From positions 1-46,522 of the forward strand of contig NZ_BMOC01000018.1 in assembly GCF_014646875.1 (NCBI RefSeq): 46,522 nucleotides of DNA, written 5' to 3'. Positions 22,912 through 28,448 of the stretch are shown here, piece after piece. The stretch comes from Halobellus salinus. GTDB taxonomy: Archaea; Halobacteriota; Halobacteria; Halobacteriales; Haloferacaceae. A program made the translations under genes and the position numbers. The notes beneath the pieces are model-generated. The model had not been told where the DNA came from, did not search any database, and worked only from the letters and a program-made list of their open reading frames with translations. Numbering within the stretch: position 1 is the first letter of the stretch; each line of letters begins with the position of its first letter.

Positions 22912-24353
22912 CATTCGTTCTAGTTTAGTGGCGGTCAAAGCCGAACTCACCTCGTTCAACCTGCTCACGTAACCGATCTCTGTGTGGATTTGGATTTCGT
23001 GATGCCCACAGCAACAGCTCGTCCAAATCCGGCAGTTCGTAGCCCAGCTCAATCATAAGATACAGCTGGATCAGATGAGCGTGGCGTTCAACGGCTAGCG
23101 AACAGCGACGGCGAGGGAGCCGCGACGCCGACGAGTCGGCGTCCGCGGCAGCCTCTACCTTATGCTGTCTTGTCTCAATCGACCGTAACTCATCCACGAT
23201 AACACGACTCATCATCAACGAAATCGCCGCCATGATGATCAGCGCCTCGATAATGTAGGCGTCGGTCGTCTTGATCTCGTCCAAGCCGAACCGCGACTTC
23301 AACTCCTTGAACAGCAGTTCGACCTCACAGCGCGCCCGATAGAGCTGCGCGATATCGGGCGCACTGTACTCCTCACGCGCCAGATTCGTCAGATAGAGAT
23401 GGTACTCTTCGCTCTCCTCATTCCGCAGCCCGACCAGTCGAAACGTCCGGGTCGAGCTGGCGCCCGACCCTCGCTTGCGATCGAACGAGAGCGTGATGCG
23501 GACATCGATCTCTTGTCGCTGCAGGTCGTCGAGGACGGCCTGCAGCGACTCCCCTTCCAGCGAGATACTGTTTCCCCGCCACGTCCGCAGTTCTTCGATG
23601 ATCTCGAAGTTCGCGTCCTCCTTGACGCGGGAGACGAACCACCCGCCGTTCTGGTCGATTCGGTCGAACAACCAGAAATCGTAGAAGCCTAAATCAAGCA
23701 GTATGAGGGCGTCAGCTACCCACTCTCCGGTGGGTAGCTGACTCCGTTCGTGGGTTGTTCCATCAGTTGTACGGAACCGTGTTGGAAGACCTGTCGAGAG
23801 TGACTCCGTGAGGTGGAGCTTCAGTTCAGCTTGGTCTTCGCCAGTTGCTGCGTAGACATCAGCGGCGTCCTGGTACAGCGAAACGATGGTCGCGTCAGCA
23901 ATGAGGACGTCTCGAAATCGTTCGAGACGTCCGTTCAAGTCGGTTCGTCCGGTATCGAGATTCTCGATGGCATCATCGAGAATCTCTCGAAGGAGTGCAA
24001 CGAAGCCCGGTTCGAACCAGTCGTGGAATGCTGCGTAAGAGAGTTCGTCGCAGTCAGCCATCTCGACGTAGCGGTCGAGAAACGCTTGCAGAGAGCGGTC
24101 TGAGCCAGCAGCGAAGCCAAACGAGAGCGTGTAAAACAGCGCAACGATGTCGAACTTCCGCTCACGCTCAACGAGATTCGTTGCGCGAGCGCGCTCGCGC
24201 AACTCATCAGAGGGAAACGCTCTTTGAATTCGGTCAACAACTACCGAGTCCGGTGGAGAGTACACACTTCCCACCGGGTTCCTCGACCGGGTAGTTGCGA
24301 CGATATCTAATCAGCAGATAGCGACAGGATTCTCCACTAAACTAGAACGGATG
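22912..24353 (-). mobile_element. IS4-family (ISH8-like) insertion sequence
   Basis: About 1442 bp. The ends are inverted repeats: the left end reads CATTCGTTCTAGTTTAGTGG and the right end, on the other strand, CATCCGTTCTAGTTTAGTGG (one mismatch). Each end is flanked by the same 10 bases, GTCGCATCGC (22902-22911 and 24354-24363), a target duplication. Exact boundaries can slide by 1-2 bases. It carries one transposase gene and sits inside a tnpB remnant. Confidence 0.9.
22925..24274 (-). CDS. IS4-family transposase (ISH8-like)
   Basis: A 449-aa DDE transposase. The first Asp is in VLIADATIVSLY, the second in ALILLDLGFYDFWLFDRID, and the Y-(2)-R-(3)-E-(6)-K signature of IS4 elements is YRARCEVELLFKELKSRFG, containing the catalytic Glu. 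It fills the element from about 13 bases inside the left end. No frameshift or internal stop is seen and both ends and the target duplication are perfect or nearly so, so it may be active and recently inserted. The start is taken at 24274 (MGSVYSPPDS). Confidence 0.92.
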   Translation of the reverse strand: MGSVYSPPDSVVVDRIQRAFPSDELRERARATNLVERERKFDIVALFYTLSFGFAAGSDRSLQAFLDRYVEMADCDELSYAAFHDWFEPGFVALLREILDDAIENLDTGRTDLNGRLERFRDVLIADATIVSLYQDAADVYAATGEDQAELKLHLTESLSTGLPTRFRTTDGTTHERSQLPTGEWVADALILLDLGFYDFWLFDRIDQNGGWFVSRVKEDANFEIIEELRTWRGNSISLEGESLQAVLDDLQRQEIDVRITLSFDRKRGSGASSTRTFRLVGLRNEESEEYHLYLTNLAREEYSAPDIAQLYRARCEVELLFKELKSRFGLDEIKTTDAYIIEALIIMAAISLMMSRVIVDELRSIETRQHKVEAAADADSSASRLPRRRCSLAVERHAHLIQLYLMIELGYELPDLDELLLWASRNPNPHRDRLREQVERGEFGFDRH

Positions 24354-24840
24354 GTCGCATCGCCATCGGTGAGTTGAGCGATGTTCGAGAGGACGAGAAC
24401 GGCGAGTCTCGGAACTGGGGGAAGCGTGGGAACAAGAAACTTCACGGGTGGGAATTCGACCGCTTCACCCGCTTGCTCGGATACAAAGCGGAAGAACACG
24501 GCATCCTCGTGAAGTACCTCGGGGTCAAGCCCCGAGACACTCGCCTTGATATTCTGTAGACCGTACAAGCAAGCGGGACACGAGCAAGACGTGTTCGTGC
24601 TGTGGTCGAAAGCGTGGTGCGAATCGTGTGAAGCGTGGATTGTACGTCTGTGAGTCGTGTGGTGCGACGATGAACGCAGACGTGGATGGAGCGGTGACTA
24701 TCCGCAGAAAGATAACTCAGAGTCCTCCAACGGAGGATATGAGTAACGGTCGTTTGGCACGGCCAGTAGCTTTCCCGTTCAACCAAACCTCGGGGCGTTT
24801 CGCACCGAGCGAACAGGCGAGTTGCAAAGCTTAATATCCC

Positions 24841-25387: not shown

Positions 25388-26422
25388 CTACTTGTCGTCT
25401 CCGCCGTCGGATGTCGCGGCCGTCGCGGCCGAGACGGCCCTGTCGGGGGTTCGTCGCCGGCGGGAGACGTATCGACGGCCCCGGACGCCGGCTTTGATCG
25501 CCGCGTAGATCCCGATCGCGACGAGGACGATGGTTCCGCCGGCGGCGATATCGTACAGATACGAGAGCGTGACCCCGGTCGTGGTCGCGAGAAGGCCGGC
25601 ACAGGCCGCTGCCCCGATGGAGCGTTTGAACCCGCGGACGGACGTCGCCGCGGCGACAGGGATCACCAGCATCGCCGCGACCAGGATGACACCCATGATC
25701 TGCATCGCGCCGACGACGACGCCCGCCGTCAGCACTGCCAGCAGTTGGTTGTAGCGGGTGACGGGGAGGCCGGCGGCACGGGCGCCGACCTCGTCGAACG
25801 TCACGTAGACGAGTGGGCGGTACGCGAGGGTGACAGCGGCCGTCACCACCACACCCATCACCAGCAGGATCGCGGCGTTCGTTCGCGAAACCGTCGCGAG
25901 CGACCCGAACAGGTAGGCGTTGATCCCGACCGCGATCCCCCCATCGGTCGCGGTCACGAGCACGCTCCCGACCGCGAACGATCCCGTCAGGACGATGGCA
26001 AGGGAGGTGTCGCGGTACGCGCCGGCGTAGTCGACGAGGGTCTGCACGAGCAGCGCTGCGACGGCGGCCACGAGCAGGGCTGTCAGTAACGGCGCGACGG
26101 TGACAGAGAGCGTGGCGTTCACGAACAGTCCCGCAGCGACACCGGCGAACGCCGAGTGTGCGAGCGTATCACCGATCATCGCCACCTCCCGGTGAACCAG
26201 AAAGCTCCCGACGAGGGGGCCGATCACGGCGATGCAGAGCGCGGCCAGGTAGGCCCGCTGCATGAACGGGGACGCCAGCATATCGATCCCGCTGAGTCCG
26301 GCCAGGAGGTCGAGTCCCGCACCCCACACGTCGTCGAGGAGGAAGCGCACTATCCCGTCGACGGAGCCGACCTGGCCGAACACGGACGGAGTGGCCGGTC
26401 CGGGAGAGAGGAGTGTGGTCAT
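25388..26422 (-). CDS. Zn/Mn-type ABC transporter permease (ZnuB-like)
   Basis: A 344-aa membrane permease of the ABC-3 family with about eight to nine helices. The family features FLVHREVAMIGDTLAHSAFAG (about 77-97) and the region MGVILVAAMLVIPVAAATS are present. The C-terminus is a basic, then acidic cytoplasmic tail. Its ATG overlaps the stop of the ATPase gene by one base (TGATG). Together with the ATPase and the His-rich binding protein it forms a high-affinity zinc or manganese importer; the metal cannot be decided from sequence, though the long His-rich loop favours zinc. Confidence 0.9.
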   Translation of the reverse strand: MTTLLSPGPATPSVFGQVGSVDGIVRFLLDDVWGAGLDLLAGLSGIDMLASPFMQRAYLAALCIAVIGPLVGSFLVHREVAMIGDTLAHSAFAGVAAGLFVNATLSVTVAPLLTALLVAAVAALLVQTLVDYAGAYRDTSLAIVLTGSFAVGSVLVTATDGGIAVGINAYLFGSLATVSRTNAAILLVMGVVVTAAVTLAYRPLVYVTFDEVGARAAGLPVTRYNQLLAVLTAGVVVGAMQIMGVILVAAMLVIPVAAATSVRGFKRSIGAAACAGLLATTTGVTLSYLYDIAAGGTIVLVAIGIYAAIKAGVRGRRYVSRRRRTPDRAVSAATAATSDGGDDK

Positions 26423-27159
26423 CAGTGATGGTGGTGGACGAGGGACTGAGAGCCGCCGTACGCGTCGGCCAGCGCGTCGGTTTCGACGAACGTCTCGGGA
26501 TCACCGTGGAAGAACAGTTCGCGGTTGAGACACGCGATCTCCGAGGCGTGTGTCGTGACGACCCCGATGTCGTGTTCGATGAGAACGATGGTGATGCCCT
26601 CGCGGTTCAGGTCGTGGAGGAGGTCGTAGAAGGCCTCGCGAGACTCGGCATCGACGCCGACGGTCGGCTCGTCGAGCGCGAGGAGGTCAGCCTTCGACGC
26701 GAGCGCCCGCGCCATGAACGCCCGTTGGCGCTGCCCGCCCGAGAGCCGGCCGATACGGCGATCGGCGAGGTCTCCGATCTCGACCCGCTGGAGCGCGGTG
26801 TCGACAGCGTCGCGATCCGCTCGTGTGAACCGGCTCGCCAGTTTGTGTGGATACCGCCCCATACGGACCGCCTCCCTGACGGTGATCGGCATCTCCCCGT
26901 TCGTGGTCGCCACGTCCTGTGGGACGAATCCGATCCGTCCGCTGTGCCTCGACTCGTGTGCGGGGTCGCCGAACAGCGTCACCGACCCGCTGTCGGGGCG
27001 GCGGAGTCCGATCATCAGCTCGAGCAGCGTCGTCTTGCCCGACCCGTTCGGCCCCACGAGGCCGAGGAACTCGCCCTCCTCGGCGTCGAGCGAGACCCGA
27101 TCGACGACTGGGCGGTCGCCGTAGGAGAAGGTGGCGTCGCTGACTTCGAGGAGTGCCAT
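26422..27159 (-). CDS. Zn/Mn-type ABC transporter ATPase (ZnuC-like)
   Basis: A 245-aa ABC ATPase. Walker A is GPNGSGKTT (about 36-44), the Q-loop is FVPQDV, the signature is LSGGQRQR (139-146), Walker B is LLALDEPTVG (159-168) and the H-loop is VLIEHDIG. The last four residues are His (LVHHHH), a natural metal-binding tail. The ATG at 27159 lies inside the 3' end of the binding-protein gene, which has lost its expected stop and reads on for 47 codons in another frame. Translation of this gene may therefore be affected. Confidence 0.92.
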   Translation of the reverse strand: MALLEVSDATFSYGDRPVVDRVSLDAEEGEFLGLVGPNGSGKTTLLELMIGLRRPDSGSVTLFGDPAHESRHSGRIGFVPQDVATTNGEMPITVREAVRMGRYPHKLASRFTRADRDAVDTALQRVEIGDLADRRIGRLSGGQRQRAFMARALASKADLLALDEPTVGVDAESREAFYDLLHDLNREGITIVLIEHDIGVVTTHASEIACLNRELFFHGDPETFVETDALADAYGGSQSLVHHHH

Positions 27160-28319
27160 TGTGCGTTGAGCGCGCGTGTTATCGTCGGGAGATTGACGCT
27201 TTTCATCACCTCGACGTAGCCCCACTCCTCGTCGTCCCACTCGTCGGTGAGTCCCGGCATCGCAGTCAGGGGCAGCACCGCCTCGGCGTCGGTCGCCTCG
27301 ACGAGTTGGTCCGCGGCCTGCTGTGACTCGAGCGGATCCGCACAGATGTACTGGAGATTGTGCGTCTCGATGACGTCCTGGGCACGCTCGATGTCCCGCG
27401 GTGTCGGACGGTCGTCGGGCGAGACGTTCGTCAGCGCCTCGACTGTCACCCCGTAGCGGTCGCCGAAGTACTGTACCGAGTTGTGGCCCGCAACGAGGAC
27501 GACCCCCGTCGACGCGTCGGCGACGACCGATTCGAGCCGCTTGTGGAGGGTGTCGAGTTCGTCGCGGAAGGCCTCGGCGTTCTCGGCGTACGCGTCCGCG
27601 TTGTCGGGGTCGATGTCGGCGAGTGCCTGTCGGACGTTCCCCGTTGCCGACTCGACCCGAAGTGGATCCATCCAGAAGTGGGGGTCCGCTCCGGAGCCGT
27701 GGTCGTGGCCCGTTTCGGTGTGGTCGCTGTCGTGGTGCTCTTGGGTGTGGCCGTCGTCGTGACTCTCTTGGGTGTGGCCGTCGTCGTGACTCTCTTGGGT
27801 GTGGCCGTCGTCGTGACTCTCTTGGGTGTGGCCGTCGTCGTGACTCTCTTGGGTGTGGCCGTCGTCGTGACTCTCTTGGGTGTGGCCGTCGTCGTGGCTT
27901 TTCTCGGTATTCTCACCGTCGTGACCACCACCGGCCGCCAGAAGGTCGAGTCCCGCACTCACGTCGACCGCCGACACGTCCGGACTGTCGGCTTCGAGGT
28001 CGGTTTTGATGTCGTCGACCCAGGGCTGGAAGCTGGGCATTCCGTGGACGAGCAGGTCGGCGTCGCGGATGTCCTCACGGACGCTCGGCCCGGGCTCCCA
28101 CCCGTGGCCGTGCTGGCCGACCGGAACGAGCAGATCCGTCGCGGCCGCCTCGCCGGCGACGCGATCGGTGATATCGCCGAACACGAAGAAGGATGCCCGC
28201 GCTGTCGTCGTGCCCGACTCCGACCCGGAAGTGGTTCTGCTGCCTGTACACCCGGCGAGTATCCCCGTCCCCGCCGTCCCCGCAGCCATAGACAACAGCT
28301 GCCGCCTGGAGAGTTTCAT
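27015..28319 (-). CDS. Zn/Mn-binding ABC lipoprotein (ZnuA-like), stop codon lost
   Basis: A 434-aa frame. The N-terminus has a twin-arginine signal (SRRQLL) and a lipobox LAGC, so it is a Tat-exported lipoprotein. Cluster A-I metal-binding residues are visible: His in GQHGHGWEPG, His in DPHFWMDP, and AGHNSVQYF. A His-rich loop with six copies of SHDDGHTQE lies between the first two. The natural end should be near Gln387 (VNLPTITRALNAQ). Instead the TGA expected in an ATGA overlap with the ATPase start is TGG, so the frame runs 47 more codons (Trp388 onward) in an Arg/Ser-rich sequence that is only the ATPase gene in another frame. Confidence 0.88.
   Translation of the reverse strand: MKLSRRQLLSMAAGTAGTGILAGCTGSRTTSGSESGTTTARASFFVFGDITDRVAGEAAATDLLVPVGQHGHGWEPGPSVREDIRDADLLVHGMPSFQPWVDDIKTDLEADSPDVSAVDVSAGLDLLAAGGGHDGENTEKSHDDGHTQESHDDGHTQESHDDGHTQESHDDGHTQESHDDGHTQESHDDGHTQEHHDSDHTETGHDHGSGADPHFWMDPLRVESATGNVRQALADIDPDNADAYAENAEAFRDELDTLHKRLESVVADASTGVVLVAGHNSVQYFGDRYGVTVEALTNVSPDDRPTPRDIERAQDVIETHNLQYICADPLESQQAADQLVEATDAEAVLPLTAMPGLTDEWDDEEWGYVEVMKSVNLPTITRALNAQWHSSKSATPPSPTATAQSSIGSRSTPRRASSSASWGRTGRARRRCSS
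27738..27899 (-). repeat. Six-copy 27-bp tandem repeat encoding a His-rich loop
   Basis: Six head-to-tail, nearly identical 27-bp units each encode S-H-D-D-G-H-T-Q-E inside the binding protein. A related degenerate unit (HHDSDHTE) follows. The near-identity at DNA level suggests recent expansion by slippage. Confidence 0.95.
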
Positions 28320-28343
28320 CTGTAGATATTAAATTTGGATGTG

Positions 28344-28350
28344 GATATAA
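28344..28350 (-). promoter_or_regulatory. TATA box of the metal ABC operon
   Basis: On the minus strand TTATATC is centred about 27 bases before the ATG at 28319. The surrounding 28320-28385 is unusually AT-rich for this genome and contains partly symmetrical TAATGGTAAGGTTATTA, a candidate binding site for a metal-responsive repressor (inference). Confidence 0.55.
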
Positions 28351-28448
28351 TAACCTTACCATTAGATACTAGTACAGTTATTAAATCGGGCGTTCGGAGG
28401 TCGGTGGGCCGGCGGAGCCGAGTCGAGTGCACCAACCGCCTCCGGAGT

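Follow-up and report, generated by a model that had tools for sequence, protein, structure and literature searches.

A probable stop codon loss between the binding-protein and ATPase genes of a znu-type operon in Halobellus salinus

Background

In a metal-import operon of Halobellus salinus, the reading frame of the binding protein runs across the start codon of the ATPase gene and ends well inside it, which raises the questions of whether a stop codon was lost here, which base changed, and what this would mean for translation of the ATPase. The operon lies in the window analyzed in this study (the whole stretch of 46,522 nt, contig 18 of the draft genome), for which a previous interpretation made without database searches (the sequence-only reading) had proposed a lost TGA stop, an altered translational coupling, and a coincidence with transposon debris. 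In H. volcanii, strict coupling was reported for nine of nine overlapping gene pairs and de novo initiation at downstream operon genes was argued to be unlikely (Huber et al. 2019, PMC6728339), while reinitiation was near zero at spacings of 22–23 nt and overlaps longer than 8 nt were rare (Huber et al. 2023, PMC10666635). The constructs described in the excerpts of both papers considered here comprise positive spacings and premature stops, with no long overlaps among them. In a model of how unidirectional overlaps arise when stop or start codons are disrupted, lengthening of the upstream gene at its 3′ end was the commoner route (Fonseca et al. 2013, PMC3887535), and a class of "3′ extensions" (class iii), with a mean of 121 bp, made up 68 of 715 long co-directional overlaps and was regarded as errors or unconserved cases (Palleja et al. 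2008, PMC2478687). A limited literature search for stop loss in archaea returned no paper.

Methods

Homologous loci were gathered from genome contigs (20 loci) and from 99 relatives, 170 genomes of the family, and 60 additional stretches. The resulting 142 loci were reduced to 110 distinct haloarchaeal junctions (window included) by removing 25 duplicates and seven further loci, five without a usable ATPase or binding-protein end and two of bacterial origin. Except for the Haloarcula rara plasmid (L044), 287 plasmid records were left out of the junction survey. Ancestral states were obtained by parsimony on two tree topologies and read at the node beside the window.

Results and discussion

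The znuA-znuC-znuB-type operon (28319..25388, minus strand) encodes, in this order, a binding protein, an ATPase, and a permease. The first is a ZnuA-family metal-binding lipoprotein of 434 residues (27018..28319, minus strand, stop at 27015..27017; ORF 28319-27015), with a ZnuA domain (Pfam PF01297, E-value 1.2e-53, 182.7 bits against a cut-off of 29) and a twin-arginine, lipobox-like N-terminus (RRQLL...LAGC); its residues 1–386 align with the relatives, and its scores are below every NCBIfam equivalog cut-off. The ZnuC-like ATP-binding protein (26422..27159, minus strand, 245 aa, ATG at 27159; PF00005, 1.2e-32) aligns with relatives over its full length, and its stop shares 1 nt with the ATG of the ZnuB-like ABC-3 permease (25388..26422, minus strand; PF00950, 3.7e-53) in a TGATG, which leaves the operon's second junction in its normal form. 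The three genes in a single operon, a His-rich loop, and the fold matches are those of ZnuABC-type importers (PF01297, PF00005, PF00950), from which the binding protein differs by 48 additional C-terminal residues. Foldseek matched the modelled protein to B. subtilis YcdH (2o1e), AdcA (7jj8), ZnuA (1pq4), and AztC (5w57), and much of the modelled core fits ZnuA-type structures, at a mean AlphaFold pLDDT of only 62.8 (15 sequences). Positions H70, H72, H214, H279, D328, and E331 were invariant over 15 binding-protein sequences including that of the window. At the nearly invariant E381, the window protein has Thr instead, which fits a mild relaxation at the C-terminus.

The His-rich loop suggests zinc as a substrate. 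It is encoded by a 27-bp tandem repeat (27696..27896, minus strand, 7.4 copies, 91% matches) with the His/Asp-rich unit DDGHTQESH, and the loops of relatives differ in length and unit (six residues in L044, five in L040), as if loop length were set by repeat slippage. Upstream of the binding-protein ATG, an AT-rich stretch (28320-28395) holds a TATA-like TTATTATA some 34 nt ahead of the start codon, an arrangement that would fit a leaderless transcript; in the H. volcanii znu1 operon, a transcription start site is reported 4 nt before znuA1 (PMC8155600).

At the first junction, the binding-protein frame is open for 434 codons and crosses the ATPase ATG (27159, minus strand). Codon 386 encodes Ala, codon 387 (27159..27161, minus strand) is CAA (Gln) and shares its last A with the A of the ATPase ATG, and codon 388 (27158-27156) is TGG (Trp388). 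The frame now ends at its first in-frame stop, a TGA at 27015..27017 (minus strand), 142 nt beyond the A of the ATPase start, so that the two genes overlap by 145 nt with the stop counted. Codons 388–434 (27018..27158, minus strand) thus form a 47-residue tail in the +1 frame of the ATPase gene. Both the proposed stop loss and the origin of the tail in another frame of the ATPase gene are supported, as relatives end near residue 386 and the first stop available here is that at 27017-27015.

Nothing comparable was found among the relatives. The alignment with orthologues that the sequence-only reading had proposed as a check returned an overlap longer than 4 nt in none of the 109 distinct haloarchaeal relatives, leaving the window alone among the 110 junctions. 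When start codons were chosen heuristically, these fell into 4-nt overlaps (41), TAATG (8), TGATG (8), spacings of 0–20 nt (3), genes farther apart (33), junctions without a nearby start codon (16), and the single value of –145 of the window. For relatives with an ATPase identity of at least 71% (n = 32), the offset was –1 in 14, –4 in 14, 0 in one, and +74 in one, and in two a start was not found nearby. Taking the aligned ATPase start as the reference gave an overlap of at most 4 nt with the binding-protein stop in every relative. Close relatives stop no more than a few residues from position 386 of the window protein, and a bacterial match (L048) has a longer binding-protein C-terminus, yet its stop precedes the ATPase gene. 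On these alignments, the C-terminal extension is private to the window sequence.

A private feature seen once calls for weighing a sequencing or assembly error, in which case the organism itself would have TAA (or TGA), the consensus base would be wrong, and the biology would be unchanged. The genome is a 3.07 Mb draft in 54 contigs, and error and unconserved reality are described as indistinguishable in the 3′ extension class (Palleja et al. 2008, PMC2478687). Such an error would have to be a wrong substitution rather than a homopolymer indel; the genome is 99.26% complete with 0.3% contamination and the remainder of the operon is intact, although one wrong base is compatible with all of this. 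We consider an error unlikely, and the doubt that remains concerns whether the CAA base is real, given the single sequence of the species behind it. Neither the binding-protein nor the ATPase gene has internal stops, and their terminal branches do not exceed those of their sisters in length (0.091 against 0.067–0.16 for the ATPase, 0.25 against 0.21–0.33 for the binding protein), as expected if the stop loss was recent. Apart from the near-invariant Glu381, no position fixed in the relatives is lost in the window. Intact genes on normal branches are thus compatible with a recent or tolerated stop loss, and for the same reasons we rejected decay of the operon into pseudogenes.

By its ATPase, the window belongs to a six-member clade (support 92/94; branching inside the clade is poorly supported) together with Halonotius, the uncultured archaeon A07HR67, the Haloarcula rara plasmid, and the genomes G055 and G032. 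Four of these five companions have a TAATG junction with a TAA stop, and the fifth (G032) has ATGA one codon later. The closest relatives mostly read GCA-TAA-TGG, with the 1-nt TAATG overlap, where the window reads GCA-CAA-TGG; the alignment of 10 junctions has no gaps there, and against the A07HR67 junction GCATAATGGC the T is the sole difference. The nearest ATPase (L039, 87% identity) has TAATGGC and thereby the same Ala second codon as the window. For the first base of codon 387, parsimony favored T over C at a cost of 2 against 4 on one topology and 2 against 7 on the other, and for the first base of ATPase codon 2 it favored G over A (2 against 3, and 3 against 5). Most likely, the lost stop was therefore codon 387 itself (27159-27161), changed from TAA to CAA by a single T-to-C transition at 27161.

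The sequence-only reading was right that one base change suffices, but it had placed that change elsewhere, in an ancestor ending NAQ-TGA within an ATGA overlap, where an A-to-G change in ATPase codon 2 turned TGA into TGG at Trp388. The junction of Haloarcula mannanilytica (outgroup L032) is exactly CAATGA and 4-nt overlaps are common (41 of the 110 junctions), so that a two-step path via ATGA, the –4 form seen in L032 and in the close relative L020, is possible. This path requires more changes, as the line would first have to go through CAATGA, and it conflicts with the TAATG of four of the five closest ATPase relatives, with the Ala codon in common with L039, and with the T and G reconstructed beside the window, the latter indicating that the G of ATPase codon 2 is not the mutation. 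We regard it as quite improbable. With the stop most likely lost at codon 387, reads covering 27156-27158, the proposed check, would examine the wrong codon.

The explanation we prefer, with a probability of roughly 0.65, is that the stop was lost recently and without adaptive value, and that this loss disrupts the termination-reinitiation junction with the ATPase. The ancestral Halobellus operon would have had, by parsimony, the usual TAATG stop/start overlap between the two genes, and one T-to-C transition would have converted its TAA into CAA (Gln387), a mutation that we take to be real and recent. Ribosomes translating the binding-protein gene would then pass the ATPase start in another frame and stop 142 nt after its A, the protein gaining Gln and 47 residues that were not selected for. 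ATPase synthesis would presumably be lowered, because termination would have moved away from the ATPase start, the site at which haloarchaeal ribosomes reinitiate. The operon resembles the haloarchaeal termination-reinitiation pairs (PMC6728339, PMC10666635) in that many relatives have TAATG, TGATG, or ATGA and its second junction is TGATG; unlike them, its first junction has the 145-nt overlap in place of the defining short one. The suggestion that coupling could be changed is thus supported as an expectation, with the stop far past the ATPase start and the short overlap gone.

There is a slim chance that the stop-loss allele is real and that the ATPase is still translated, even with ribosomes passing over its start in another frame. 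If so, haloarchaea would not need a stop/start overlap to initiate translation within an operon, which would contradict the strict coupling reported for H. volcanii. A rescue of the ATPase start by a Shine-Dalgarno motif was tentatively rejected: no GGAG or GAGG is visible within the preceding 20 bases (a GAGG lies about 50 bases upstream), and this absence says little, since a loose SD-like pattern matched in 47 of the 110 junctions. As for the cell's zinc supply, the genome yielded no ZnuA homologue other than the binding protein; there is one strong and one weak (30 bits) ABC-3 match, and one ZIP protein exceeds its cut-off while another falls below. With the weak second ABC-3 match and a ZIP protein that exceeds its cut-off, the cell may not depend on the znu operon alone for zinc.

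The tail itself has the features of out-of-frame reading. With a codon score trained on 11 gene segments of the window, which include parts of the binding-protein and ATPase genes, its value per codon was –0.40, which falls among those of +1-frame windows of the window's genes (mean –0.25, 5–95% –0.52 to 0.07, n = 232) and lower than in-frame windows (mean 0.28, 5–95% –0.10 to 0.52); ATPase codons 1–48 and binding-protein codons 340–386 scored 0.44 and 0.30. Past the 110 distinct ATPase starts, the median open length of the same frame is 16 codons, with quartiles of 7 and 46; in five cases, the frame was still open where the retrieved sequence ended. An open length of 46 codons recurs among them, so the 47-codon length of the tail appears unremarkable. 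It is mostly Ser/Arg-rich and contains the peptide SATPPSPTATAQSSIGSR. Its nine Lys/Arg, lack of Asp/Glu, and pI of 12, on a protein with a mature-core pI of 4.3 whose gene is undecayed, could be taken to indicate a basic extension kept by selection, e.g., for binding to the S-layer or membrane or for tuning the coupling. We rejected a functional tail as hardly credible, because it is unconserved, its composition is accounted for by the out-of-frame reading, a Pfam search of it found no family match, and the AlphaFold model is of low confidence (residues 401–434, pLDDT < 50).

The suggested link to transposon debris was not upheld. An IS4-family transposase ORF (NF033592, 267 bits) lies between perfect 14-bp inverted repeats TTCTAGTTTAGTGG (22918-22931 and 24334-24347), and the element (22918-24347) looks complete. 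Its end at about 24347 lies ~2.8 kb away from the junction, beyond the permease and ATPase genes, and this distance, together with the gapless junction alignment, led us to reject a link between the transposon and the stop loss. The adjoining sequence (24353-24740, plus strand) gave a sub-threshold Pfam match to PF07282 (E-value 0.012) and, judged by eye, resembles a decayed TnpB/IS605-type gene. The window ATPase branches with A07HR67, Halonotius, and the Haloarcula rara plasmid (81–87% identity) in the tree and not with the six copies from its own genus (72–76%), which suggests that the operon (25388-28319) was transferred between genera.

Conclusions

Read as a stop loss, the junction belongs to the known unidirectional overlaps that arise by 3′ extension and is an ordinary kind of event. 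The binding protein is longer at its 3′ end than its orthologues, the ATPase is of similar length, and the proposed change is a point change in a stop codon, all as described for such overlaps (PMC3887535; class iii in PMC2478687), with no essential difference; the present case allows the ancestral junction to be reconstructed base by base. Apart from what it offers as a test of coupling, the case would be an ordinary mutation or error. It would provide a clean, private example of a long same-strand overlap arising by stop loss with an inferable ancestral form and, as the affected gene is the sole ZnuA homologue detected in this genome, in a lineage with reported dependence on stop/start overlaps, a simple test of overlap-dependent downstream translation.
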